DNA of 32,876 bases from a virus: positions 1 through 32,876 of IMG/VR virus record IMGVR_UViG_3300020156_000456; one strand, written 5' to 3'. Of the stretch, positions 1,757 through 32,876 are shown in pieces (position 1 is the first letter of the stretch; each line of letters begins with the position of its first letter). The notes under the pieces are model-generated. The model worked only from the letters and a program-made list of their open reading frames with translations. It made no database searches and was not told where the DNA came from. Made by a program: the position numbers and the translations under genes.

Positions 1757-2611
1757 CTATTTCCTCTTGACTGGAATCCAAATCTCTCCGAAGACATTTT
1801 CATGGCTGGCTAACCCATAGTACATCTCGAATTGTATACCCTCCACCGATTCATATCCAGAGGTAGGAAACCACTCGGTCCAGATTCGTCTCCACATGGC
1901 TTGAATTTCACAGTCGGGCACATCAAAGACAGCCCATGTCGCCGCAGGAACATCAAGTACCGTAAATCTATCCGGTACCGAAAGGCCTTTGGGTAAGAAC
2001 TGGCAAAGCATGTACTTAAATGTTTTTTCTGTATGGTCGTACAACGCTGAGATTGTGTGATTATCATTGAAACGGCCTAAAAGTTCGTTGATTTCGTCCG
2101 GCACCAAGTCTTCATCGCACTTTCTAAAAAACTGCGGAACCTGTTCAAATGCAGTCTCCTGATTTGTGCTAATGTCCGCGTAAACGCCGAACACACGAAA
2201 CGCCTCTCGCTGTGTAATGCGATACTTCATCTCAACATTTCCTTTAATTGTGATAGAGAAGGTCATCTTCGGATAGGCTTTAAACGAAACTCCTATATCG
2301 CGCGCTGATACCGGCATGACGCCGTGCAGCTTTTTGAACGCTCGGCTGAATGCTTCCGGCGACTCGTATCCGTATTTTAATGCCGCATCAATAACTTTAC
2401 AATTTCCAGCTTGCAACTCGAAAGCCGCTAATGTCATCCTTCTGCGCCGGATATACTCCGACAGCGGTACTCCCGTGATGTATGAAAACATCCTCTGGAA
2501 GTGATAGGTCGAACAACATGCGATTTGTGCGGTGCGATCATAGGAGATTTCATCTGCCAGATGCGTTTCGATGTATTCTATTGCCGCGTTCATATTATCA
2601 AGCCAATCCAT
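1757..2611 (-). CDS. AraC-family regulator with GyrI-like ligand domain
   Basis: A 284-residue protein with the typical two-part build. Residues 1-110 carry two AraC/XylS helix-turn-helix motifs (IACCSTYHFQRMFSYITGVP and the second around YGYESPEAFSRAFKKLHGVMP). Residues about 125-284 form a GyrI-like/SOUL-type effector domain with the usual ending FEMYYGL..FGEIWIPVK. Proteins of this kind sense small hydrophobic molecules or drugs and regulate efflux or stress genes on chromosomes. It is unusual cargo for a phage. The minus start is an ATG preceded by GAGGGAA. Nothing in the neighbourhood is an obvious efflux target, so it may act on host genes or on its own dyad-bearing promoter. Confidence 0.85.
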   Translation of the reverse strand: MDWLDNMNAAIEYIETHLADEISYDRTAQIACCSTYHFQRMFSYITGVPLSEYIRRRRMTLAAFELQAGNCKVIDAALKYGYESPEAFSRAFKKLHGVMPVSARDIGVSFKAYPKMTFSITIKGNVEMKYRITQREAFRVFGVYADISTNQETAFEQVPQFFRKCDEDLVPDEINELLGRFNDNHTISALYDHTEKTFKYMLCQFLPKGLSVPDRFTVLDVPAATWAVFDVPDCEIQAMWRRIWTEWFPTSGYESVEGIQFEMYYGLASHENVFGEIWIPVKRK

Positions 2612-2973: not shown

Positions 2974-3531
2974 CTACGATAACCACTTATTTTTACTTTG
3001 TGTACTTTTTAATTCAACTTCTTTTTGTTGAGTCTCCTTTTTTGCCTTTGCGGCTTCGTCAGCCTTATGCTTAGTTATTTTATGTACAACCAGCGACAAG
3101 AAGAAAACAGCAACGAAGAGCATGACAACTGAGGCGATAGTAATTAGAAAGATACTATGACCCAACCAAGACCAGACCACTATAAGCGCTTTAGAAGGCT
3201 TTTCTGGATTAGGCACTAGGCGTATTACTATACTAAAGACCAAAGCTATTGATTGAGTCCATATAGACCATACAAAGGACCGTAAAATATAGCTCTCCGC
3301 AACGCTTCCCCTAATAGGCATCAATGCCTCATGGTCTACCAATGTTAAGAGAATAGTAAGACCTGCTATTAAAAATCCAGCCAAACTACCGAATAGACCT
3401 ATAAGCGTACCATCCTGTCCTAAATCCAGCATAGCTTGACCGGGACAAAATAAATACTCTAAAAGGACACCCAAAAATAACGAAGTGGCTAGAGCCGTGC
3501 CTGTGATATGCCGCTTGAACCGCTCACGCAA
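2974..3531 (-). CDS. Four-helix membrane protein with charged cytoplasmic tail
   Basis: Unrecognised, 185 residues. Hydrophobic segments at about 10-28, 43-65, 84-105 and 120-150 suggest four transmembrane helices; the last 35 residues are Lys/Glu/Gln-rich (KADEAAKAKKETQQKEVELK) and probably cytoplasmic. The start is TTG at 3531, with GGGAG ten bases upstream inside the end of the preceding gene. The gap to that gene is only 6 bases and one terminator follows, so the two form one operon and are probably co-dependent. A soluble sensor plus a small membrane effector is a common layout of superinfection-exclusion or abortive-defence pairs, but no domain here proves it. Confidence 0.7.
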   Translation of the reverse strand: MRERFKRHITGTALATSLFLGVLLEYLFCPGQAMLDLGQDGTLIGLFGSLAGFLIAGLTILLTLVDHEALMPIRGSVAESYILRSFVWSIWTQSIALVFSIVIRLVPNPEKPSKALIVVWSWLGHSIFLITIASVVMLFVAVFFLSLVVHKITKHKADEAAKAKKETQQKEVELKSTQSKNKWLS

Positions 3532-3537
3532 CAGTTA

Positions 3538-4437
3538 TCAACTCCCTTTGCGAAGTACCGGGAGATAATCAACGATATCATTTTGGTAAAACTCATTAAT
3601 AGCGGTGTACATGCTAGATGACTGTACTATTCGAGTATTCTCCTCCACCGTAAGAACTGATACCTTGGCGTAGAGGTCCTCACCAACAAGGTCTATAACC
3701 TCATCCCCTGTTAACTCAACCTTCTTCAAAGCACTTAGTTCAGCCTTATTGGTATGTAGCCTTTTGACAAGGTTTCCTAGTAGACCTTGAGTTTCCTTTG
3801 GCAAGGTCTTTCTGCCAGCGCTTATAGTTATGTTTACGGTAACGTCATCAGGACTATCACCCATTACTTCAGTAGTACCCATTTTAAAAACATCCTCTAA
3901 AATTGTGAGAGCAGGGGATGTAATAGTTACTTCACAACGTCGGAAGGTTCCCTGTTGCCTTTTAACCCTATCAAAAGCATCTGTTCTTAATATAGGCCTT
4001 AAATCGCATTGTTGAACCTCAGAAACTAACTCTTTTATGTATGAACCAAACCTACCAAAACCTCTTGCCCCATAATGGTTATACTCAATCACCATTACTG
4101 TAGTGGAAGGATAGAAAATGAAATGAGCTCGCTCAAGCACGTTTTCTTCTCGTGCCAGTTTCAAAAAACGTTCCTTCCCTTGAGTTATATCGACTACTCT
4201 AGGAACTTCCCACCTGAGCCAATCAAAATGCCCCTTTACTGCAGCCGGACCTAGTCCATCCAAAGTAAGGCATACTCCTGTAGTTTCATCTATTTGCTTA
4301 ATATGGTCTTTATTGAAGACCTCAAATCTTCGAAACATGTCCAATGGAGTAAAACCCGGTGTCTCCGGGTCTGGTGTCATTACTAGGGTATAGCAGTATA
4401 AACTCCGAGAAGCCAGTTTAGGTGCATTGAGAGCCAT
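3538..4437 (-). CDS. Unrecognised 299-residue protein, partner of membrane protein
   Basis: No family recognised with confidence. There is no signal peptide or membrane helix. The sequence alternates beta-type stretches (SLYCYTLVMTP, CLTLDGLGPAAV, AHFIFYPSTTVMVIEYN, VTVNITISAG) with helical ones and looks like a soluble mixed alpha/beta protein. The centre has a distinctive YNHYGARGFGRFGSYIKEL segment (about 120-138). Start is an ATG at 4437 with a GGTGGA-like site. It is the first gene of a two-gene minus operon lying between phage early genes, a typical accessory (moron) position. Divergent transcription from the plus coiled-coil gene at 4657 suggests its own promoter and possibly lysogenic expression. 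A defence or exclusion role is inference from layout only. Confidence 0.65.
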   Translation of the reverse strand: MALNAPKLASRSLYCYTLVMTPDPETPGFTPLDMFRRFEVFNKDHIKQIDETTGVCLTLDGLGPAAVKGHFDWLRWEVPRVVDITQGKERFLKLAREENVLERAHFIFYPSTTVMVIEYNHYGARGFGRFGSYIKELVSEVQQCDLRPILRTDAFDRVKRQQGTFRRCEVTITSPALTILEDVFKMGTTEVMGDSPDDVTVNITISAGRKTLPKETQGLLGNLVKRLHTNKAELSALKKVELTGDEVIDLVGEDLYAKVSVLTVEENTRIVQSSSMYTAINEFYQNDIVDYLPVLRKGS

Positions 4438-6966: not shown

Positions 6967-7242
6967 ATGACTACCAAAGAGTGGGTTGAATCTAACCCTC
7001 TCAGAACGTTTAGAAAGGCGAATAGGCTCTCGTTAATGGAAATAGCATCTAGGATGGGTGTAGGACTCTCCGCTATCCAGACCTGGGAAAGGGGAGTCCA
7101 CATCCCTACGGGGCCTAACATGGGGAATCTATCAGCAATAATGGAAGATGCTGAGCTTGAAAAGAAATGGGCAGAGTGGTATGAGGCTCGCCCCTTTATC
7201 CAGGGGATGGGCTTGACACGGCGCTATGACAGGGATAATTGA
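6967..7242 (+). CDS. Small HTH protein, XRE-like
   Basis: 91 residues. Residues about 10-60 make a Cro/CI-type helix-turn-helix: LRTFRKANRLSLMEIASRMG, then VGLSAIQTWERGVHIP. The remainder is a helical tail. It follows the Sak4-like gene by 2 bases and is the last plus gene before a terminator. Four GACA sites of the neighbouring array fall in its last 30 bases and just after it. It could control the operon or the divergent/convergent partition-like locus; its operator is unknown. Confidence 0.75.
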   Translation: MTTKEWVESNPLRTFRKANRLSLMEIASRMGVGLSAIQTWERGVHIPTGPNMGNLSAIMEDAELEKKWAEWYEARPFIQGMGLTRRYDRDN

Positions 7243-7289
7243 CATAGCGACAAACAGCGGGGCAATGTCAACATGAAGAGATTTTTTCG

Positions 7290-7321
7290 AAGGCTAAGAG
7301 CTGTAGGGCTTTAGCCTTTTT
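7290..7321 (+). terminator. Intrinsic terminator of recombination operon
   Basis: AAGGCTAA (7290-7297) pairs with TTAGCCTT (7311-7318), 8 bp, followed by a T run that ends at the last base of the opposite-strand gene. Confidence 0.8.
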
Positions 7322-7776
7322 CATTTCTTAAATAGCTTTTTCCACCATGGCAAAGCGTCCCTCGCAGCGGCAGCTTCGGCCTGGGCTTGAATTATCTCTT
7401 CAAGGCGTGTCATACGGTCTACCAGGCTGTTGACACTTGTCATAGCGTTGTCAATCTGCTCCTTTGTCGCAAGGTTGGAAAGGGCTGACTGAAGGGTAGA
7501 CATCGCTTTGAGAAAGGCTTCCATGTCGAAGGGCGGGTTTGTGTCGTCTGAACTTGTCATAGTGCTGTCAACCTGTGAAAGTGTATTGTCCTCGTTGTCA
7601 CCCATAGACAAAATAAGGTTGTCAACGCTCACTTGGCCAACCATTACCTTATACCCGCCGTGGTCTAATGGCTGGGTGATAGACTCCAGTTTACCAGCCT
7701 TTATGTACCTTCTCACGGTCCTTTCGGAGCATTTTAACAAGGTGGCAGTTTCCTTTATTGTCAACCATTCTGTCAA
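7321..7776 (-). CDS. MerR-type HTH/coiled-coil protein, single-protein partition candidate
   Basis: 151 residues. Residues 1-55 hold a MerR/excisionase-like winged HTH (WLTIKETATLLKCSERTVRR, YIKAGKLE, then a GGYKVMV wing). Residues 56-85 are an acidic Ser/Thr linker, 87-135 a coiled coil (MDAxxSLVDRMTRLEEII-type heptads), and the end is a Trp/Lys tail, PWWKKLFKK. This order matches plasmid HTH-coiled-coil proteins such as pSK1 Par and MerR/DUF3967 plasmid proteins. The start is TTG at 7776; a TGTC site overlaps it. The gene is surrounded and partly overlapped by the TGTC/GACA array and has a strong promoter covered by these sites, suggesting autoregulation. Alternatives are an excisionase or a simple repressor. 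Confidence 0.7.
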   Translation of the reverse strand: MTEWLTIKETATLLKCSERTVRRYIKAGKLESITQPLDHGGYKVMVGQVSVDNLILSMGDNEDNTLSQVDSTMTSSDDTNPPFDMEAFLKAMSTLQSALSNLATKEQIDNAMTSVNSLVDRMTRLEEIIQAQAEAAAARDALPWWKKLFKK

Positions 7777-7819
7777 TGCGTTCTGTCATCCCTTTCAATA
7801 GGACAAAATCGGTAGGACA

Positions 7820-7847
7820 CTTATACTGTCCGGGTGACGTTTGTCAA
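7820..7847 (-). promoter_or_regulatory. Strong sigma-A promoter of the HTH/coiled-coil gene
   Basis: On minus, TTGACA (7847-7842) and TATAAG (7825-7820) are separated by 16 bases. The -35 itself contains a GACA site, a second site lies in the spacer and a third just downstream, so a protein bound to the array would block RNA polymerase. Confidence 0.65.
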
Positions 7848-8007
7848 CCCATGACATGTCCATATGGACAAAAACGTTATGACAGCCGTGCTGTCAAAGT
7901 GAACTTTGTCAATACGTAACTGAGAACACGAAAGTTATAAACCGCTGCTAAATAGGCATATAACGAAAACGATTCGGACAGCGCTTTGACAATGTGCAAG
8001 CACTGTC

Positions 8008-8324
8008 ACACGAAGATCCTTTATTTGGTAGAATTCGAGGCTTGTCCATGCGTATCCTTCAAGGTCAGATATTCTACAATTGGCTTGTGACCACTTCTTA
8101 ATGTTTACGGTCGCCTATCTCGATATGAAGTGTGTATCATTTCCATTCATTGGATAACCATTATTTGGAATCATAGCATTGTTGTTGGTGGTGTACCATA
8201 ATGGGGACTCCAGTACTGAGGCCGATTCACGAAAGGAAAGACGATGAATTGAGTTATGCAAGATGGTGGTAATAGGGCTTAGGAAGGCTCTTATAAGCAT
8301 TGCTGCGGAAGGGAATTTGAAAGA
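8008..8324. other. Non-coding stretch before the membrane-protein gene
   Basis: About 320 bases after the array. It holds one stray TGTC (8043) and the second copy of the 21-bp repeat (8174-8194). No convincing gene, tRNA or terminator is visible. Confidence 0.4.
8174..8194 (+). repeat. 21-bp upstream repeat, copy 2
   Basis: ATAGCATTG, T, TGTTGGTGGTG; one base differs from 5428-5448. It is followed by ACCATAATGGGGAC, which resembles the ACTATAAGGGAGGC after copy 1. It lies 130 bases upstream of the membrane-protein gene. Confidence 0.7.
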
Positions 8325-12042: not shown

Positions 12043-13332
12043 ATGATGCCGAAAAGAGTAGACCTTATGGCACTCCAAGAAATCGGATCCTCGGGCTTAA
12101 ATGAGTTCGGTGGAGTCGTATATGAGGAGTTTCTTAAACAGCTGCAAGGCACCCGGGGCATCAAAATATATCAGGAAATGTCGAGTAATGACGCCGTAAT
12201 TGGCGCCATTTTATTTGTCATAGACATGCTTATACGCCAAGTTAAGTGGGATGTAGTGCCTTTTTCCCAAGAGTCGGGTGACGTCAATCGGGCGGAATTT
12301 CTGAAGACTGTTCTATCTGACATGAGTATGACATGGGAGGACACCATCTCCGAGATAATGTCCATGCTGACATATGGATGGTCCTACCATGAGATTGTCT
12401 ATAAGGTGCGCTTGGGTAGCAATGCTGATTCGAGTCTATCCAGCAAGTATTCGGACGGCCTTATAGGCTGGAGGAAGTTGCCTATCAGAAGCCAGGACAC
12501 CCTCTATGAATGGCGATTCGATGAACATGCGGGCCTCCAGGGGATGGTGCAGTCTGCGCCACCGGATTGGATTCCGAAATTCATACCGGTGGAAAAGGCT
12601 TTACTCTTCAGGACACAAGTCCGCAAAGGTAACCCTGAAGGGCGGTCAATCTTGCGGAATGCATATCGGAGCTGGTACTTCAAAAAGCATATCGAGGAGA
12701 TCGAAGGTATTGGCATTGAGCGGGACCTAGCGGGCCTGCCCGTAGCCTGGGTACCTCCGCAGCTTTTGTCATCTAAGGCGACGGCTGAAGATTTGTCTGT
12801 CCTCTCGGCAGTCAAGAAGATAGTTACAAACGTCAGGAGAGACGAGCAAGAGGGCATTATATTTCCCCTGGTGTATGACGAGACGGGCCACAAGGCCTAT
12901 GACTTTGCCCTGCTATCAACGGGTGGCAGGCGGAACTTTGATACGGGAGCTGTAATCAGCCGATATGACCAGCGCATCGCCATGACGGTACTAGCGGACT
13001 TTATCCTTCTGGGCCAGTCGAATGTCGGGTCCTTTGCCTTATCATCAAACAAGACGACCCTCTTTGCTACGGCCCTTGGGGCGTGGCTGGATTCCATAGC
13101 AGCCGTATTCAACCGGTATGCCATTCCTAGGCTCTTCAAATTGAATGGATATGCAGAAGAGAGATTACCGGAGCTTAAGCCGGGTGACATCGTCATGCCG
13201 AGCCTGACGGAGCTAGGGGAATACATTAATAAACTATCTGGAGCAGGCATAAACCTCTCCCAAGACGTGCAATTGGAGAACCATCTTAGACGCCTGGCAA
13301 ACCTACCGCCGAAAGAGGGTGATGGAGCATGA
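12043..13332 (+). CDS. Portal protein (DUF935-like)
   Basis: 429 residues. The N-terminal pattern (YEEFLKQLQGTRGIKIYQEM, then SNDAVIGAILFVIDMLIRQV and the WDVVPF strand) and the centre (SMLTYGWSYHEIVYK, GWRKLPIRSQDTL, EKALLFRT) match phage portal proteins related to Mu gp29/DUF935. Twelve copies form the DNA channel at a capsid vertex. ATG at 12043 with AGGAGG eight bases upstream; a second ATG follows at 12046. It overlaps the next gene by 4 bases (ATGA), implying translational coupling. Confidence 0.88.
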   Translation: MMPKRVDLMALQEIGSSGLNEFGGVVYEEFLKQLQGTRGIKIYQEMSSNDAVIGAILFVIDMLIRQVKWDVVPFSQESGDVNRAEFLKTVLSDMSMTWEDTISEIMSMLTYGWSYHEIVYKVRLGSNADSSLSSKYSDGLIGWRKLPIRSQDTLYEWRFDEHAGLQGMVQSAPPDWIPKFIPVEKALLFRTQVRKGNPEGRSILRNAYRSWYFKKHIEEIEGIGIERDLAGLPVAWVPPQLLSSKATAEDLSVLSAVKKIVTNVRRDEQEGIIFPLVYDETGHKAYDFALLSTGGRRNFDTGAVISRYDQRIAMTVLADFILLGQSNVGSFALSSNKTTLFATALGAWLDSIAAVFNRYAIPRLFKLNGYAEERLPELKPGDIVMPSLTELGEYINKLSGAGINLSQDVQLENHLRRLANLPPKEGDGA

Positions 13333-14156
13333 CTATTTCGCAGAAGCAACAGGTGCCGCCTGAAGGCCCTGTAGACGCCGTCATAGCCTTTGTAGGCTCA
13401 TCTCCCAATGCAATTGAAGCTCTTAGAGGACGACTTTTCCTGGGCCCTATAGGCGAGATTTTCAAAGGTATGTATCTAGACCCTCTTGGAGTGAAGCGGG
13501 AGGATGTATTCATAACGAGCGCAGTCCCGCAGTTTTTGGGTCGAGAACCTACGGATGAAGAGATAAACGAGTTTAGGCCGTGGCTAGATTCGGAGCTCGA
13601 GAAGGCTAGACCTAAAACAATCGTAGCCCTAGGCTGTACAGCCCTGAAGGCCTTAGGCGATAAGGCTGATATCGTAATGCCCCATCCAAGGAATATACAA
13701 AGGTCTCAGAGTGTGCGGAAGTTAGCAGCCCTTGAGGAGCTGAAGGACCTCATACAAAAAAATCTCAACGTCGATCCAGACATCGGAGTGGTTGAAAAGC
13801 AGCTTGTAGTGTTTAAGCAAGACGAAGAGAAGCGAGAGGTAACGGGAATTGTCTTACAGCCGGATGTAGTAGATGCCCAAGGAGATATTATTTCGGCAGA
13901 AGAGATTGAGCAGGCAGCTCATGATTGGCTGATGAATTCCAGAGTTATAGGGGATTCTCACCGGAAGGAAGCCCAGGCCCAGGTGGTCGAGAGCTGGATT
14001 GCACCCTCAAGCCTGGAAATTGACGGGCAAGATATCCCGAAGGGCGCCTGGCTAATGACGGTCAAGGTACTAGATGACAGAATGTGGGAAGCCGTAAAAA
14101 GCGGGGATTACGGAGGATTCTCTATCGGAGGTAGTGCGAATAGGGAGGCGACATGA
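13329..14156 (+). CDS. UDG-like domain fused to XkdF-like head protease (N part)
   Basis: 275 residues with two domains. Residues about 15-140 look like the uracil-DNA-glycosylase superfamily: VIAFVGSSPNA, LFLGPIGEIFKGMYLDPLGV, FITSAVPQF, TIVALGCTALKAL and MPHPRN, in the order of family 4/5 motifs. The canonical catalytic Asp/Asn after GExPG is not evident, so glycosylase activity is doubtful. Residues about 155-275 match the XkdF/S78-type prohead protease: VTGIVLQPDVVDAQGDIIS, the H211 region GDSHRKEAQ, VVESWIAPSS and YGGFSIGG. The protein stops just after this segment. The usual continuation of the XkdF domain appears in the gene at 14381, beyond an intervening DUF1653 gene. Confidence 0.75.
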   Translation: MTISQKQQVPPEGPVDAVIAFVGSSPNAIEALRGRLFLGPIGEIFKGMYLDPLGVKREDVFITSAVPQFLGREPTDEEINEFRPWLDSELEKARPKTIVALGCTALKALGDKADIVMPHPRNIQRSQSVRKLAALEELKDLIQKNLNVDPDIGVVEKQLVVFKQDEEKREVTGIVLQPDVVDAQGDIISAEEIEQAAHDWLMNSRVIGDSHRKEAQAQVVESWIAPSSLEIDGQDIPKGAWLMTVKVLDDRMWEAVKSGDYGGFSIGGSANREAT

Positions 14157-17879: not shown

Positions 17880-20800
17880 GTGGCGGTATTCATCAGTCCG
17901 GTGGAGGTTACGCCGGGAACTGCGGGCGCCTGGACCGATGTCGATGTGTCGGCCTATGTACCTGCTGGTGCCACGGGTGTCATTCTGCAATTTGATATCG
18001 ACGATGGAGTATTAGCTCAGAATGTCGGATTCAGGCAGAACGGAAGCACAGACAACCGAATCAACACCTTGGCTGCAAACTGCATGTTCTGGTGTGCGGT
18101 GGGAGTAGACTCGAGCCGGATGTTCGAGGGGTATGTAAGCAATACCGGATTCGTTAGCATATATCTCCATGGATATTTTACGGCCGATGCAGCCTTTTTC
18201 ACTAACGCACCCGACAAATCCCTAGGCATAACCGGCGCCTGGACGGATATCAGCATCGCATCCGATACGGGAGCAGATACCGCTGTAGGTGCCATCCTGG
18301 AGGTATTGTCAGCCAGCATCAGCTGGGGTGTTCGAAAAAACGGTAGTACAGATAACCGTATATCCTATTACAGCGCTAATCATTCGGCTGCGGTAATAGG
18401 GGTCGATGGAACAGAGATTTTCGAAGGACAGATAGGAAACGTCTCCTGCGACTTTTTTCTGCTTGGCTACATAAAAGGCGGGGCTTCGTTTGAAACAAAC
18501 GGCATAGATAGGTCCCTGACTACCCCGGGCACTTGGCAGAATCTGCCTGTCCTAGCTTCGGGTGCGGTAGGCGCTATCTACGAGGTAATACAAAGCGATT
18601 CAACAGCAGAATATGGGTTTAGGCAGGACGGAAACACATCGAGCATTTTGAGCAGGCCCTTCGTCCACGCCTGGGGTATATCCGGGGCAGTCTCCCAAAT
18701 AGTAGAGGGCAGGATAAGTGCAACAAGCGTCGACTTTTTCCAGCTTGGCCATTTCAACGGCGTGACAATAGAATCCCTGGCTGGAACTATAACAGGGTCA
18801 TCTGTGCTATCTGGCAGCTTGAAGGCTACAGCGAAGATAAAAAGCCTCTTAACGGCTGCAGGGAATACGACCGGAGAATTACAGGCCCTGATTCGGATGG
18901 CTGGCCTTATCTCGGGAAGCAGCTCGTCGCAGGCAGTATCCAAGAGGACAAGAAAGCTGTCTGGGATATTTCAGGCTCAGAACGCAACGACGGGGAAGAT
19001 AGCCTTGGATGTAGGGCTATTCGGGCCTATAGAGAATGAGGCGAAGGCGCTTGGCAGGATCACTTTCGACAAGAGAGCCCTGATAGGGACAGTCGAAGTT
19101 GAAGCTATCATGTCTGGTCAGCTAACGACCATTGCCCTTTCTGGGTTAGTATCCGGGGTATCCGCCTTATCAACATCCTTATCCGTTGGTCTGATGTTGG
19201 GTGGCCTTATATCTGGAATCTCTTCCGTGACCGCAGACCTGGCTACAACTAAATTAACTATGTTCGGGGAGTATGCCACGGGTGATATGCCCGATGACTG
19301 GACCGTGAAGTGGGATAACGATAACCAGAGCTGGACGGTCGAGGCAGATGCCACCGCTACCAGGGGTCGGAATTTAAAGCATACTTCGACCATAACCAAA
19401 AGGCGGGTCCTGAGTTGGGACGCAATAGGCACGGTCACGGATGCAGAGATAACGGCAAGGCTTCGGGCATCTTCTTCAGCTGGTTATCAGCTGGGGTTAA
19501 TCATACGGGGAGCTGGTCCATCATCTTCCAGCTCTTTTGGATATCGGATTCTATTTCGAAATGGGGACGAGGTTCAACTGGTCCGCAGCGACCCTGCTTT
19601 GGTGGTCCTTGATACCAAAGTCTATACCTGGGAGTCCAATAAGTACTACCATGTCCGATTTAGTGTCATAGGCTCTACCCTGGAAGCCAAAGTATGGAAG
19701 GATGGGGAGGACGAACCGGGGTCACCTCTCCTGACAGCAGTAGATACCACCTACTCAGAAGGCTTTATCGGGGTGACAACCTTCGAAGCGGGGACCCACG
19801 ATTTTGACTTCGTAGGCATAGGGACAAACGGGTTGACAGCGCCGACACCCCTCTTTCTTAGGGGCGAGGCAGAGGGTATGGCAGCGGTGGCGGGGACCAT
19901 CGATATATCCTCCGCCTTGAGGGGTGCCATCCCTGGGACGACAACCGTAGAAGGCCGGATGATAGCCGCCAGGGAGCTGGTAAGTACCGCCATATGTAAA
20001 GGTGTGGGGTCGGGTTCCCTCTCCATCGATTGGAGCTTGGCGGGAACCACAGCCGGACTGGCGGTTATCGATGGGTTTTTGATGACCTCAAAATCGATAA
20101 CCGGGTCGGCGGACGCCTTGACAGCTGTCACAGGAAAGCTAAGAGCAAACGTGCCCGTTGCAGGCAGCATCCCGGTGGTGAGCGCCATAAGCGCACGCTT
20201 GGATATCTCGGCGGGTATGACAGGGGCTATGTCAACCCAGGCAAATGTCAACGCCCGCCTAACCTTCGAAACCTTGAGCTTGACGGGTAGTGTTCAGGGC
20301 CAGATTGCACATTTCGGCCTTCTGACGGTTCCGAAGGTCCTTGAAGGTATAACAACATTGTCCGTCACCTTTTCAGCTCTCCTGGGGCTCCTAAACGCCT
20401 TACAGGGGCAAACTATTAGTATGTCCGATACTGCCGGAAAACTATTCGCAGATGTTTCTCTAGAAGGTCTAGCCGATGTGAGGTCAACCTTCGCAGGAAT
20501 CCTCCGGGCCGATGTCCCTATCACAGGCGAGGTACCGGGTACCAGCGCAGGCGGCGGGGCCCTTTCCACATTCCGGCAGCTGGTGGGAGATATCGCGGGC
20601 CAGCCCACCGCAACAGGGGATCCCAGGGTATTCATGAGGGTCTTAGGGGATACGGTAGGAGACTCAGGGCTGGTAGGATTCCTCTCAGCCGGGGCCAGGA
20701 TGGAGTCAACTATAACAGCCTTGGGCCAGGTTATTGGTGCGGTGTCCGTCTTCATAAGACTTTCTGGGGCGATGCCCGGAGCGAGCGAACAGACCGGTAG

Positions 20801-21395
20801 TCTGCGAATCCTGGAGCCCATAGAGGGTGCCACCTCCGCATCGAGTACGACCACCGGAGACATCACTAGGCAGAGAGGCTTATGGAGTCAAACCCTTGGA
20901 TTTGCAGATATAATCGGGACCGCCAGGAATGCCCGACGACTGCCGGGAGCTATCCATGCTACCAGCACAGCAAGTGGATTCCTCGACCGTATCTTAATTG
21001 CACTCATCCGGAGGATAGATATATTGGGCCGTGTCCGCAACGGTAGGGCGCCCTTAGAAGAGGACTTCGATATGTACGCGGGCGAGACTCTTATTCTTTC
21101 ATGCCGAGTGGTAGACCGGGAAAACAGACCTGTAGATATAACCGGGGCGAGTTTTCGCTGGGAGGTCCAACGGGACCAGCTGGCGGGCCAGTCCACCTCT
21201 ATCATGAAGACATCGGCCTCGGGCATAGCCGTAGAAGATGACGAAGGTGGGCGGTTCCATATCGAATTAGCACCAGGCGATACCGATGGGAAGAGCGGAG
21301 CTTATTACCATGAGTGCCGAATGACCGACAGCTTGAATCACCCTACAAGTATATTCGCAGGGCGCATGACGATCATCAGGACAGTTATAGGCTAG
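17880..21395 (+). CDS. Giant repeat fibre protein 1 (1171 aa)
   Basis: GTG start with GAGGTGG six bases upstream. Domains: residues 1-299 are three related beta modules of about 100 residues (each with a GV/GFR-(K/Q)-(N/D)G-(S/N)-T and a G-Y/H-(F/I) strand). Residues 300-459 are eight 20-residue repeats. Residues 460-659 are a LamG/concanavalin-like domain (GDMPDDWTVKWDNDNQSWTV, then YYHVRFSVIGSTLEAKVW, FIGVTTF). Residues 660-1040 are nineteen further 20-residue repeats. Residues 1063-1171 are an Ig-like/BppU-N-like domain (GETLILSCRVVDRENRPVDI). The repeat has hydrophobic residues at odd positions and Gly at 3, 7 and 13, suggesting a beta-solenoid or fibrous shaft. It lies among head genes, so a capsid or neck fibre with carbohydrate-binding ability is more likely than a tail-tip fibre. 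Confidence 0.8.
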   Translation: MAVFISPVEVTPGTAGAWTDVDVSAYVPAGATGVILQFDIDDGVLAQNVGFRQNGSTDNRINTLAANCMFWCAVGVDSSRMFEGYVSNTGFVSIYLHGYFTADAAFFTNAPDKSLGITGAWTDISIASDTGADTAVGAILEVLSASISWGVRKNGSTDNRISYYSANHSAAVIGVDGTEIFEGQIGNVSCDFFLLGYIKGGASFETNGIDRSLTTPGTWQNLPVLASGAVGAIYEVIQSDSTAEYGFRQDGNTSSILSRPFVHAWGISGAVSQIVEGRISATSVDFFQLGHFNGVTIESLAGTITGSSVLSGSLKATAKIKSLLTAAGNTTGELQALIRMAGLISGSSSSQAVSKRTRKLSGIFQAQNATTGKIALDVGLFGPIENEAKALGRITFDKRALIGTVEVEAIMSGQLTTIALSGLVSGVSALSTSLSVGLMLGGLISGISSVTADLATTKLTMFGEYATGDMPDDWTVKWDNDNQSWTVEADATATRGRNLKHTSTITKRRVLSWDAIGTVTDAEITARLRASSSAGYQLGLIIRGAGPSSSSSFGYRILFRNGDEVQLVRSDPALVVLDTKVYTWESNKYYHVRFSVIGSTLEAKVWKDGEDEPGSPLLTAVDTTYSEGFIGVTTFEAGTHDFDFVGIGTNGLTAPTPLFLRGEAEGMAAVAGTIDISSALRGAIPGTTTVEGRMIAARELVSTAICKGVGSGSLSIDWSLAGTTAGLAVIDGFLMTSKSITGSADALTAVTGKLRANVPVAGSIPVVSAISARLDISAGMTGAMSTQANVNARLTFETLSLTGSVQGQIAHFGLLTVPKVLEGITTLSVTFSALLGLLNALQGQTISMSDTAGKLFADVSLEGLADVRSTFAGILRADVPITGEVPGTSAGGGALSTFRQLVGDIAGQPTATGDPRVFMRVLGDTVGDSGLVGFLSAGARMESTITALGQVIGAVSVFIRLSGAMPGASEQTGSLRILEPIEGATSASSTTTGDITRQRGLWSQTLGFADIIGTARNARRLPGAIHATSTASGFLDRILIALIRRIDILGRVRNGRAPLEEDFDMYAGETLILSCRVVDRENRPVDITGASFRWEVQRDQLAGQSTSIMKTSASGIAVEDDEGGRFHIELAPGDTDGKSGAYYHECRMTDSLNHPTSIFAGRMTIIRTVIG
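18777..21000 (+). repeat. 27 protein-level 20-residue repeats
   Basis: Residues 300-459 (8 units) and 660-1040 (19 units) of the 1171-residue protein. Units start L/I/V/M-x-G and run, for example, LRGAIPGTTTVEGRMIAARE. The period is exact apart from one 21/19 pair in the first block and one 21-residue unit in the second. The DNA copies are too diverged to see as 60-bp repeats; the periodicity is in the protein. Confidence 0.8.
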
Positions 21396-21414: not shown

Positions 21415-23778
21415 ATGGCAGTATTCATGACACCTGTCGAGATAACCCCAGCCCTTACCGGATGGCAAGATGCGGATGTATCGTCTTATGTGCCTATCGG
21501 GGCTACAGGAATAATCCTACATATCGTCAACACAAGCACCACCAACGAGCGGGCCATCGGCTTCAGAATGAACGGCAGCACCGATTCCAGAACCACGAAC
21601 ATGGGAGCTACGCAGCATTTCTGGTGTGCGGTCGGCATTGATTCAAACGGAATAGTCGAGCTCAATGTGACATCAACCACGGGTCAGGACATATACCTCG
21701 TCGGGTACTTCAAAACCGATGCGGCATTCTTTACCAATGCACCGAATAAGACACCCGGCGCTTTAAGCAGCTTTGTAGATGTTGACATATCAACGGATAC
21801 GGGTACGGATACGGCGATAGCTGCGGTCCTGGAGCTAATCAGCCCAGACGGAACAGCCGCAAGCGTAGGGGTGCGCAAAAACGGCAGCAGCGACACTCGG
21901 AACAGTTCAGTAAGCTATCATATAGGCGCAATAATCGGGGTAGACGCATCCAAGATATTCGAGGCATATCTATCTTCAGCGAACGCCCAGGTGTGGCTCT
22001 TGGGATACATCAGGGCCCTCGGCACCTTCAACACCAATGCCTTGGACCGAGATATATCCACGACGGGCGCTTGGACAAATTTGGGAGACCTGCCGGTAGG
22101 TGCCCTTGGAGGCGTCTACGAGGTAGTGTCGAGGTTAAGCACGACTGCGACCTATGGCTTAAGAACCCAAGGCAGCACCGAAAACATCGTACGCCGGTCA
22201 AGGTCTCATACCTTCGGCATTATCGAGGGAAACGCTGGCAAGGTCGAAGGGCAGATCAGCGACACCGGGGTTGATATATGGGAGATAGGCGCATTCTTCT
22301 CGGGAGCAGAGATTCTGGCGGGAATTATTGATGGCGTCTCGTCAGTCACCGGAGCCTTGACCGTAGCAGGTGGAGCAATCGAGTTAGCCGGAACAATATC
22401 CGGGCAATCCGACGCTACGGCATCCTTACTCCTAACCGTGCCTTTAGAGGGAATGATTCAGGGAACGGCAACCGTTGAAGGTAGCTTGGATGCAAGTATA
22501 TCGATAACGGGCGCCAGCCAGGGATTATCGACTGCAAGTGGGACTCCCAGGATGTCCAGAAGGGTCATGGGGCTAACCCCTGGGATGTCTAGCCTAGCAG
22601 GTATCCTGAAAGTTAATGCTACGGTGGAGGGCACCGCAACAGGCGTCTCCGATCTTACAGTCTCCTTAAGCCGAGTTTTGGCCTTAGCCGGGAGCATAGA
22701 ATCTACGGCAACAGATGAAGGCACCTTATCTTTATCCTTGCCGATTCATGGGACGACGGCAGCGACGTCCATCGCAATAGGTGACATAACCATCGAGGCG
22801 GGTCTTAAGGGTGTAGTTGGGGCCAGCGCTACCGTTAGCGGTAGTCTAGGGGCAGATGTATTAATATCTGGGGCCATGAGTGGGAACGCCGAAGCGACTG
22901 GGCTTCTGGGTGTAATGTACCAGCCGAGTGGATTTTCGGTGGCCGTTTCAGAACTAACCGCAGGTCTGTCAGTAACGATATCTGAAAGAGGGAATATCGA
23001 AGACACATCATCCCTTGCGGGTATCCTCGAAAGACAACGGGGCATACATAGCTCAGCTGGTACTACAGTAGTAATAACCGGCAAACTAAAGTCTACTCTT
23101 CCAATGCTTGGAAATGTTATAGCCGACTCAGGTGCAAACGCAGACCTTTCAGCTGCAGTCCTTCTTAATGGGTCCATAGAAGTCACTTGTGCAACTTCGG
23201 GCAGCATATCAACCTCCATCGCCTTTAGAGGGCAGGTAGGGGTTACAACCGGCATGACCGGGGTCCTAACAGGTCAAGCGGTCCTTGCTAGCATTATCGC
23301 CGAAACTAGCCAGGTGAGCGGCACCCTTCAAGAGGTTGGCGATATATCCGGCATCATCGAGGCCAGCTCCCAGGTAGAAGCCAGTCTCCTGCTGGTCGTA
23401 GGGACATCTGGGACCATTGAAGATATCAGCGGCCTATCGGCTTTCTTAGGCAGGGCTAGGCAAATTCCGGGTAGCATCCCTGGAGCCGCGGGATTAGACG
23501 GGTTCTTATCGATGCAGGACTTCCTCCGGGGCCAGGTCCAGGCTGTAGGTTCTTCCCTGGCTAATCTCGAGGTAGGTTATAGGCTTTATGGGGCTACCGG
23601 TGCAGCCTCGGAAGTCGAGGCCTTCATGAATAGAAATACGCCCATCACCGGATTAGCTACAGCCAGGTCTGAGGTTTTAGGGAGGATGACTATACAACAG
23701 CTATTGTACATCGAGCTAGTAGGAAGACCGGACATAAACAGGGATATCCTGGTAGTCCTTGATTGGACGGTGAGCTAA
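21415..23778 (+). CDS. Giant repeat fibre protein 2 (787 aa), paralogue
   Basis: Starts with the same design as the upstream giant gene (MAVFMTPVEITP against MAVFISPVEVTP): three beta modules in residues 1-300. Then 23 units of the 20-residue repeat run without a break from 301 to 763, the first with three extra residues. A 24-residue end follows. It lacks the LamG insertion. The Ig-like C-domain found in the longer paralogue is encoded as a separate gene starting at the very next base after the stop. ATG at 21415 with GGTGGGGAG upstream. Tandem duplication followed by divergence is clear. The products may form hetero-fibres or alternative receptors. Confidence 0.8.
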   Translation: MAVFMTPVEITPALTGWQDADVSSYVPIGATGIILHIVNTSTTNERAIGFRMNGSTDSRTTNMGATQHFWCAVGIDSNGIVELNVTSTTGQDIYLVGYFKTDAAFFTNAPNKTPGALSSFVDVDISTDTGTDTAIAAVLELISPDGTAASVGVRKNGSSDTRNSSVSYHIGAIIGVDASKIFEAYLSSANAQVWLLGYIRALGTFNTNALDRDISTTGAWTNLGDLPVGALGGVYEVVSRLSTTATYGLRTQGSTENIVRRSRSHTFGIIEGNAGKVEGQISDTGVDIWEIGAFFSGAEILAGIIDGVSSVTGALTVAGGAIELAGTISGQSDATASLLLTVPLEGMIQGTATVEGSLDASISITGASQGLSTASGTPRMSRRVMGLTPGMSSLAGILKVNATVEGTATGVSDLTVSLSRVLALAGSIESTATDEGTLSLSLPIHGTTAATSIAIGDITIEAGLKGVVGASATVSGSLGADVLISGAMSGNAEATGLLGVMYQPSGFSVAVSELTAGLSVTISERGNIEDTSSLAGILERQRGIHSSAGTTVVITGKLKSTLPMLGNVIADSGANADLSAAVLLNGSIEVTCATSGSISTSIAFRGQVGVTTGMTGVLTGQAVLASIIAETSQVSGTLQEVGDISGIIEASSQVEASLLLVVGTSGTIEDISGLSAFLGRARQIPGSIPGAAGLDGFLSMQDFLRGQVQAVGSSLANLEVGYRLYGATGAASEVEAFMNRNTPITGLATARSEVLGRMTIQQLLYIELVGRPDINRDILVVLDWTVS
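22315..23703 (+). repeat. 23 protein-level 20-residue repeats
   Basis: Residues 301-763 of the 787-residue protein. After a first 23-residue unit, 22 consecutive units are each exactly 20 residues (examples: LEGMIQGTATVEGSLDASIS; LNGSIEVTCATSGSISTSIA). Typical features are an aliphatic residue at 1, Gly at 3 and 13, and an aliphatic residue at 5, 11 and 15. Confidence 0.85.
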
Positions 23779-32738: not shown

Positions 32739-32876
32739 ATGGTTATGCAATTCACTTACAATAAATTCATGCCCAGAGACCCTAATAACTCTTCCTTGCC
32801 TTGCATTATATTAAAAGGTATTAAGGAGGAGCTATGTTTACAGTTAAAGAGATTTTCGAAGGTGTACTCTTCTTAA
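32739..32876 (+). CDS. Small protein at window edge (45 aa)
   Basis: ATG at 32739 with AAAGGGGG upstream, downstream of an extended -10 promoter; the TAA is the last three bases of the window. The sequence is not recognised (begins MVMQFTYNKFMPRDPNNSS). A second, better ribosome site and start lie inside it in another frame, so this could be a leader frame rather than the main product. The region's A+T content is higher than that of the late genes. Confidence 0.45.
   Translation: MVMQFTYNKFMPRDPNNSSLPCIILKGIKEELCLQLKRFSKVYSS
32834..32876 (+). CDS. Possible gene start cut by window end
   Basis: ATG at 32834 with AAGGAGGA (32823-32830) just upstream, open to the window edge (MFTVKEIFEGVLFL). 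The spacing is short (four bases after AGGAGG) but the site is the strongest in this unit. It overlaps the 45-residue frame in a different phase. Confidence 0.35.
   Translation, partial: MFTVKEIFEGVLFL

Follow-up and report, generated by a model that had tools for sequence, protein, structure and literature searches.

What purpose could be served, in a phage genome, by a dense cluster of one short DNA motif that covers the promoter of a small winged helix-turn-helix (HTH) gene and runs on into the gene itself? The question arises in virus record IMGVR_UViG_3300020156_000456, a linear sequence (positions 1-32,876) that we analysed whole and call the window. A preliminary description took the cluster for the binding array of a possible single-protein partition system resembling Par of plasmid pSK1; among the readings weighed below, this one is the best supported, in part directly and in part by comparison with plasmids that carry similar units.

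The 32.9-kb record encodes a DnaD/O-like replication protein, a Sak4-like annealing protein, terminase, portal, head and tail proteins. The start codon of its first gene begins at base 1, and base 32876 closes a stop codon; because it begins and finishes so exactly at gene ends, it is probably a piece cut there from a longer contig, and its appearance suggests a trimmed provirus, a fragment that lacks the left end of the phage. The preliminary description saw in the integrase-free window a sign of a phage-plasmid life style. The absence itself stands, as profiles for tyrosine and serine recombinases (PF00589, PF00239) find no match in the record, but it carries no weight in a fragment without its left end. 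A ParA-type ATPase likewise has no match in this fragment. The closest portals are 65% identical and belong to metagenomic phages carrying DnaD and ArpU-like genes, which suggests a host among the Bacillota. The records with relatives of the terminase and the portal (L002-L163) have phage genes in common with this one, but neither a gene like the minus-strand HTH gene described below nor an array.

Several other genes of the record deserve mention in their own right. A 275-aa protein (13329-14156, plus strand) joins a uracil-DNA-glycosylase domain (E=1.5e-21) to the head protease XkdF (PF14550, E=9e-32), and two adjacent, similar-looking large proteins of 1171 and 787 aa (17880-21395 and 21415-23778) contain internal repeats and match no Pfam family. 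An AraC-type HTH gene with a GyrI-like/Cass2 effector-binding part (1757-2611, minus strand) and a pair of genes for a DUF6731 and a membrane protein (2974-4437, minus strand) run opposite to the phage gene direction; these minus-strand genes are possible cargo expressed in lysogeny.

A half-site array over and inside a phage gene

The features of the locus are as follows, with one gene from the start of the record that matters for the argument.

1-1188: DnaD-like/O-like replication gene
6967-7242, plus strand: XRE-type HTH gene, 91 aa (HTH_3, E=1.3e-5); the array overlaps its 3' end
7215-8046, no strand assigned: the whole array of TGTC/GACA (TGTCAA) half-sites, 36 in all and in both orientations, from motif counts
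7215-7269, no strand assigned: five sites clustered over and past the 3' end of the XRE gene, from motif counts
7321-7776, minus strand: 151-aa gene with TTG start, encoding HTH_17, linker, coiled coil and amphipathic tail (open reading frame and HTH_17 match)
7627-7776, minus strand: HTH-coding part, aa 1-50, from Pfam; site-free over 7624-7758
7528-7623, minus strand: linker-coding part, aa 52-83, with part of the array, from motif counts
7354-7527, minus strand: coiled-coil-coding part, aa 84-141, with part of the array, from model helices and heptad pattern
7324-7356, minus strand: C-terminal cationic amphipathic tail ALPWWKKLFKK, a predicted membrane-targeting helix (hydrophobic moment 0.64, charge +4)
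7777-8007, no strand assigned: upstream/promoter part of the array, 14 sites from motif counts, proposed centromere-like and autoregulatory site
7801-7847, no strand assigned: four-site dyad module, copy 1, 47 nt
7866-7912, no strand assigned: four-site dyad module, copy 2, containing the palindrome TGACAGCCGTGCTGTCA at 7880-7896

The preliminary description had reported some 35 TGTC/GACA sites in 793 bases, far above expectation, and the excess is confirmed. Positions 7215-8007 hold 35 sites, compared with 7.3 predicted from the rate in the remainder of the window and 7.3±2.4 (maximum 15) in 1000 dinucleotide shuffles. The densest 800-base stretch of the window is the array (34 sites against a mean of 8.1), and the upstream DNA alone (7777-8047) has 15 sites where shuffles give 3.1±1.6. 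The sixteen sites formerly placed upstream of the minus-strand gene do lie in 7759-8007, but those at 7759 and 7771 belong to the opening 18 nt of the gene, which leaves 14 strictly upstream; a further site lies at 8043. The half-site is better described as TGTCA(A): TGTCA is present at 20 of the 35 sites, and TGTCAA/TTGACA occurs 12 times where 0.5 are expected. Sites stand in both orientations, most commonly 11 and 13 bp apart, and upstream of the gene they form a four-site dyad module, GACA-N10-GACA-N7-TGTC-N11-TGTC, in two copies 65 bp apart. The palindrome at 7880-7896 also has, on the minus strand, the look of a terminator hairpin followed by a T-rich stretch, upstream of the 7321-7776 gene on that gene's own strand. 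Exact copies of the module elsewhere in IMG/VR were discarded as leads: the 10 matches are about what chance gives and none lies within a dense array, one of them (L167) being a codon effect inside a DNA polymerase gene. Rfam returned no match.

The array does not stop at the start codon. The gene contains 16 sites, two at the start codon and 14 in the part encoding linker and coil, and not one TGTC or GACA lies between 7624 and 7758, in the HTH-coding part; apart from the two start-codon sites, this is the distribution that had been described. A count against codon-preserving shuffles, suggested in the preliminary description, puts the in-gene number above chance. Synonymous recoding with the codon usage of the window yields 6.5±2.1 in-gene sites, and none of 5000 recodings reaches 16; permuting the gene's own codons within amino acids yields 11.7±1.6 (P=0.011), a control that is partly circular because the biased codons are kept. 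Furthermore, the half-site picked from the upstream DNA recurs in the gene (P=0.001). The passage of the array through coding sequence had been singled out as the unusual part of the locus. It does exceed synonymous recodings, but it is not unique, since it recurs on several plasmids.

The protein and its plasmid counterparts

The 151-aa protein begins with a MerR-type winged HTH (Pfam HTH_17, E=4.3e-9; MerR, E=4e-5), and a match to phrog_66, 'excisionase and transcriptional regulator', spans aa 2-128. A single-sequence AlphaFold model of low confidence (pLDDT 55) has helices at 85-102, 105-141 and 143-149, and the heptad pattern supports a coiled coil; matches of so poor a model in the PDB are meaningless and were set aside. 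The hydrophobic moment of the tail, 0.64, is reached by 9.6% of shuffles of the tail's own residues. DUF536 has no match in the protein or anywhere in the record, PF13152 (DUF3967) has none in the protein at E<=1, and Pfam finds no Rep domain in it. IMG/VR and INPHARED contain no close relative, and a PLSDB search with the protein returned only a 29-aa match in the HTH. In GTDB the likeness of the matches (L082-L084) is limited to a KPWWKKLFKK motif ending an unrelated Bacteroidetes protein, and a scan with the tail pattern gave 16 matches, all spurious. The Bacteroidetes proteins with the KPWWKKLFKK terminus form a family of their own (1389-1439 in L082 and L083, 6001-6057 in L084).

Weak matches nevertheless opened the way to 14 proteins that have this layout and are carried by small Bacillota plasmids; most of them are encoded by uncharacterised 'DUF3967' or MerR genes. 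A plasmid search at relaxed threshold gave a 144-aa protein of pCALKR01 (best tblastn, E=5), and through it proteins of pADEG01, pNTHE02 and pSLIN08 and the MerR protein of pNTHE01, which in turn is related to DUF3967 proteins of Bacillus, Priestia and others. PF13152 is matched by five of the plasmid proteins (L211, L214, L217, L223 and L224); the literature searched held no mention of DUF3967. Large-plasmid HTH proteins (L190-L192) were dropped, as their layout differs and their array is unconvincing, and a profile scan with one alignment (A3) brought up short HTH proteins only. The phage protein is 17-23% identical to the plasmid proteins in the alignment, so low a value that common descent beyond the HTH is unproved. 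What the plasmid proteins have in common is an HTH, a coil and usually a W/F-rich cationic tail; a single tail criterion is passed by 11 of 13 layout members and by 4 of 229 other long open reading frames. A profile built from the 13 members recovers the DNA-binding domain of RacA (E=6.7e-4). In the recognition helix, T20 and R22/R23 are near-invariant in the alignment, and R23 aligns with Arg30 of BldC (phmmer alignment). The RacA counterpart of that arginine contacts a YpG step (PMC5859096), which fits a half-site containing TG. If the TG step is common to all and its neighbours are specific to each element, this would account for half-sites that differ from one element to the next while mostly containing TGA.

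Do the plasmid genes carry arrays as well? A motif-free scan took the best 6-mer cluster from 350 bp upstream to the end of each gene and compared it with all other windows of the same record. The cluster tops all others at pADEG01 (TGTCCA), pSLIN08 (TGACTA), a Peribacillus plasmid (TGAACG), a Priestia megaterium DSM 32 plasmid (GTGAGT), pNIB353_5 (ATGAGC) and, weakly, a Heyndrickxia plasmid (ATGACT), and the CGGTCA cluster of pNTHE01 is nearly the best of its record; in the strongest cases, 0 of 63, 0 of 7, 0 of 20 and 0 of 21 other windows equal it. Three of the 13 members, on pCALKR01, pNTHE02 and a Brevibacillus plasmid, have no convincing array. Most members have a half-site specific to their plasmid, in general with TGA as its core (TGACC at pNTHE01 and pA38H4, TGAGC at pNIB353_5, TGATTG at p1_GEB3), which clusters over the gene's own promoter and often extends into the linker-coding part. 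TGA/TCA ranks first among the cores in 7 of the first 13 members, for which it was chosen post hoc as the common core, and is outside the top five cores in nine control loci. Upstream-chosen 6-mers are found again within the gene more often than in synonymous recodings for 4 of 13 members and for 0 of 89 other genes (Fisher P 5e-4), upstream-chosen 5-mers for 3 of 13 and 2 of 89 (P 0.003). As in the phage, few in-gene sites fall on nucleotides that encode the HTH: 3 of 40 do, against an expectation of 10.5, and these three all belong to pSLIN08.

Four predictions were then fixed beforehand for two unseen plasmids, p1_GEB3 and pA38H4. At p1_GEB3 all four held, and its DUF3967 gene (1157-1555 in L224) is the clearest relative of the phage locus, with six TGATTG sites upstream and six in the linker-coding part (-123 to -33 and +184 to +265), unequalled by any of 12 other windows. 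At pA38H4 the predictions for core and tail held; the cluster is beaten by 1-2 of 52 windows, placing it second or third, and its sites are mostly upstream, with one in-gene site within the HTH part. No array accompanies five viral HTH_17 proteins whose recognition helix is similar but which lack coil and tail, and arrays are mostly absent from phage and plasmid control genes for HTH_17 proteins of this shorter kind. Two control loci on short records also rank first, and the archaeal plasmid pFS01 has a strong GATAAG array confined to the DNA upstream of its gene. That locus is of interest in itself: in this Methanocaldococcus plasmid (L203, 2619-2815), eleven GATAAG/CTTATC sites occur in the 200 bp before a 61-aa HTH_17 gene that neighbours an MCM gene, and they are probably an origin or operator.

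Weighing a tethering role against the alternatives

How might such a unit work? The N-terminal MerR/BldC-type winged HTH would bind TGTCA half-sites over its own promoter and into its own gene, the coiled coil would dimerise or multimerise the protein, and the C-terminal WW/KK/F tail would, when multivalent, attach the complex to the membrane. Since the half-sites cover the promoter and enter the gene, the array would be operator, for self-repression, and centromere-like site at once, and the unit would, with no ParA motor, keep the phage genome stable or in position, whether as an extrachromosomal prophage or in the form of replicating DNA. Binding of the array by the 151-aa protein is very probable judging from the sequence, and self-repression of the 7321-7776 gene is likely from the position of the array. 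Membrane attachment through the tail is suggested by the precedent of RocS (PMC13042908). The layout, the distribution on plasmids and the absence of a ParA-type ATPase from 9 of 10 complete small plasmids checked (pNTHE01 has ParA) point to a role in partition or positioning; as similar gene-plus-cluster units occur on many small bacterial plasmids, the phage unit is probably a device by which a single protein holds copies of DNA or shares them out. Firmly established are the array and its run into coding sequence, the order of the domains, and the fact that layout and array recur together on unrelated plasmids. We put the probability that the locus is a self-regulated single-protein DNA-tethering or partition module, in the manner of RocS, pSK1 Par and RacA, at roughly 0.55. 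The counter-indications are real. Some host plasmids encode what we take, from their annotations, to be a rolling-circle-type Rep or RepL; these may be multi-copy, with less need of partition, and pNTHE01 has its ParA. In addition, the trimmed-provirus look of the record would argue for integration.

The same domain and spacing would also suit an autoregulated transcription factor of the MerR/BldC/excisionase type, which would coat its own control region and so repress itself and perhaps the operons on either side, or a recombination directionality factor for an integrase encoded outside the fragment, with no part in partition. BldC and RdfS, both of the HTH_17 type, oligomerise head-to-tail on long sites, RdfS autoregulates, a spacing of 11-13 bp allows one subunit per turn, and the phage protein has the excise-type domain and the phrog_66 match. 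This leaves the long coil and the amphipathic tail unexplained, RdfS being a short winged HTH protein and BldC having no coil (PMC5859096). Moreover, a self-operator needs no 14 sites deep in the sequence for linker and coil, arrays are missing at most excisionase-like HTH_17 control genes, and the record, albeit a fragment, contains no integrase; we regard this alternative as rather unlikely. Less probable again is an array that serves as replication origin (iterons) or copy-control site, with the protein as initiator or copy-number regulator. Iterons inside a gene have a precedent in lambda O, dense direct repeats about one helical turn apart are what an origin would display, and the plasmid family lives on small plasmids, sometimes beside rep genes. 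However, the phage already has its DnaD-like/O-like replication gene, several plasmids with such a protein have separate Rep genes, the protein lacks a Rep domain, and no strong A+T-rich stretch adjoins the array, near which G+C drops only to about 41%.

Could the array be a functionless by-product of an Asp/Asn/Thr-rich linker, codon composition and chance? TGTC exceeds shuffles across the whole window (330 against 223), and all 11 Asp codons of the gene are GAC, including the four that lie outside sites, where the rest of the window has 175 GAC to 207 GAT; permutation of the gene's own codons retains much of the count. Yet the non-coding upstream DNA is just as dense, recoding with the window's codon usage falls well short of the real number, the half-site chosen upstream returns in the gene, and independent plasmids repeat the pattern with other half-sites. 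We hold this explanation to be very improbable indeed.

If the tethering module is the right reading, what of its relatives? Tentatively, and with somewhat less confidence than for the phage locus, we propose a widespread, unrecognised class of motor-free tethering systems on plasmids and this phage, in which a MerR/HTH_17, coil and membrane-tail protein would act on a centromere lying largely in its own gene, with element-specific TGA-type half-sites and linker codons selected to carry them. One DNA segment would then be protein, operator and centromere, with the centromere written into coding sequence, and a phage would be using a maintenance device of the plasmid type. How one DNA-binding protein can achieve partition with no motor is still being asked of pSK1 Par and of RocS (PMC11500499). 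With the phage locus and the DUF3967-type genes of plasmids, many systems that are small and easy to clone would become available, their sites predicted and their half-sites all different, and the membrane-tether model could be tested on them directly.

Relation to known systems

Among the closest known systems is RocS of Streptococcus pneumoniae, described in PMC11500499 and PMC13042908 as a single protein of ~160 aa with a MerR-type winged HTH, a coil and a cationic amphipathic membrane-targeting helix, and with no ATPase of its own. Its parts (winged HTH 1-55, coil 68-102, DUF536 104-146, amphipathic helix 153-163; PMC11500499) include DUF536, with its three conserved glutamines; this domain is missing from the phage protein. 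RocS also serves the chromosome, and the text consulted (PMC11500499, PMC13042908) describes no half-site array in its own gene. Par of pSK1 has the single-protein partition layout of winged HTH, coil and tail. Upstream of its own promoter, and overlapping it, is a repeat site comparable with the 14 sites at 7777-8007 of the phage locus; we know of no in-gene sites in pSK1 par. According to PMC11500499, Par ends in a helix nearly identical to that of RocS and has DUF536, absent here, where the carrier is moreover a phage. The proposed correspondence with the HTH, coil and tail order of pSK1 Par holds for the layout, the promoter repeats and the plasmid analogues, but the phage protein, without DUF536, stands outside the Par/RocS family. 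RacA of Bacillus subtilis offers a MerR-type DNA-binding domain, recovered by the 13-member profile as given above, a coil, and tethering of DNA to the envelope. Its site contains TGAC, resembling TGACA; its sites are GC-rich and scattered over the chromosome, and its anchor is DivIVA, not a tail. The phage sites, in contrast, are clustered TGTCAA and not GC-rich or dispersed, and to our knowledge racA itself contains no array.

The DUF3967 (PF13152) MerR proteins of Bacillus and Priestia plasmids have a MerR-type HTH, a coil, a W/F-rich cationic tail and an array over the promoter and often the linker-coding part; the phage protein differs in lacking PF13152 and has the shorter HTH_17 form, as in pADEG01 and pCALKR01. 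BldC, RdfS and phage excisionases have the same class of winged HTH and bind cooperatively to direct repeats about one helical turn apart, but they lack the helical region (84-141) and tail of the 151-aa phage protein, and the controls of this type examined have no in-gene arrays of such density. StbA of plasmid R388 is a DNA-binding protein that acts through direct repeats at its own promoter and can stabilise its plasmid without the help of its ATPase partner; it differs in that the repeats, 9 bp long and in two sets of five, surround the promoter region, with none described inside stbA, and in sharing an operon with an ATPase gene (PMC3098194). Partition by a single tethering protein is already known in kind. 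What is new here is the phage carrier, the absence of DUF536, the link to uncharacterised DUF3967-type plasmid proteins, and the arrays that enter the linker-coding sequence of their own genes.
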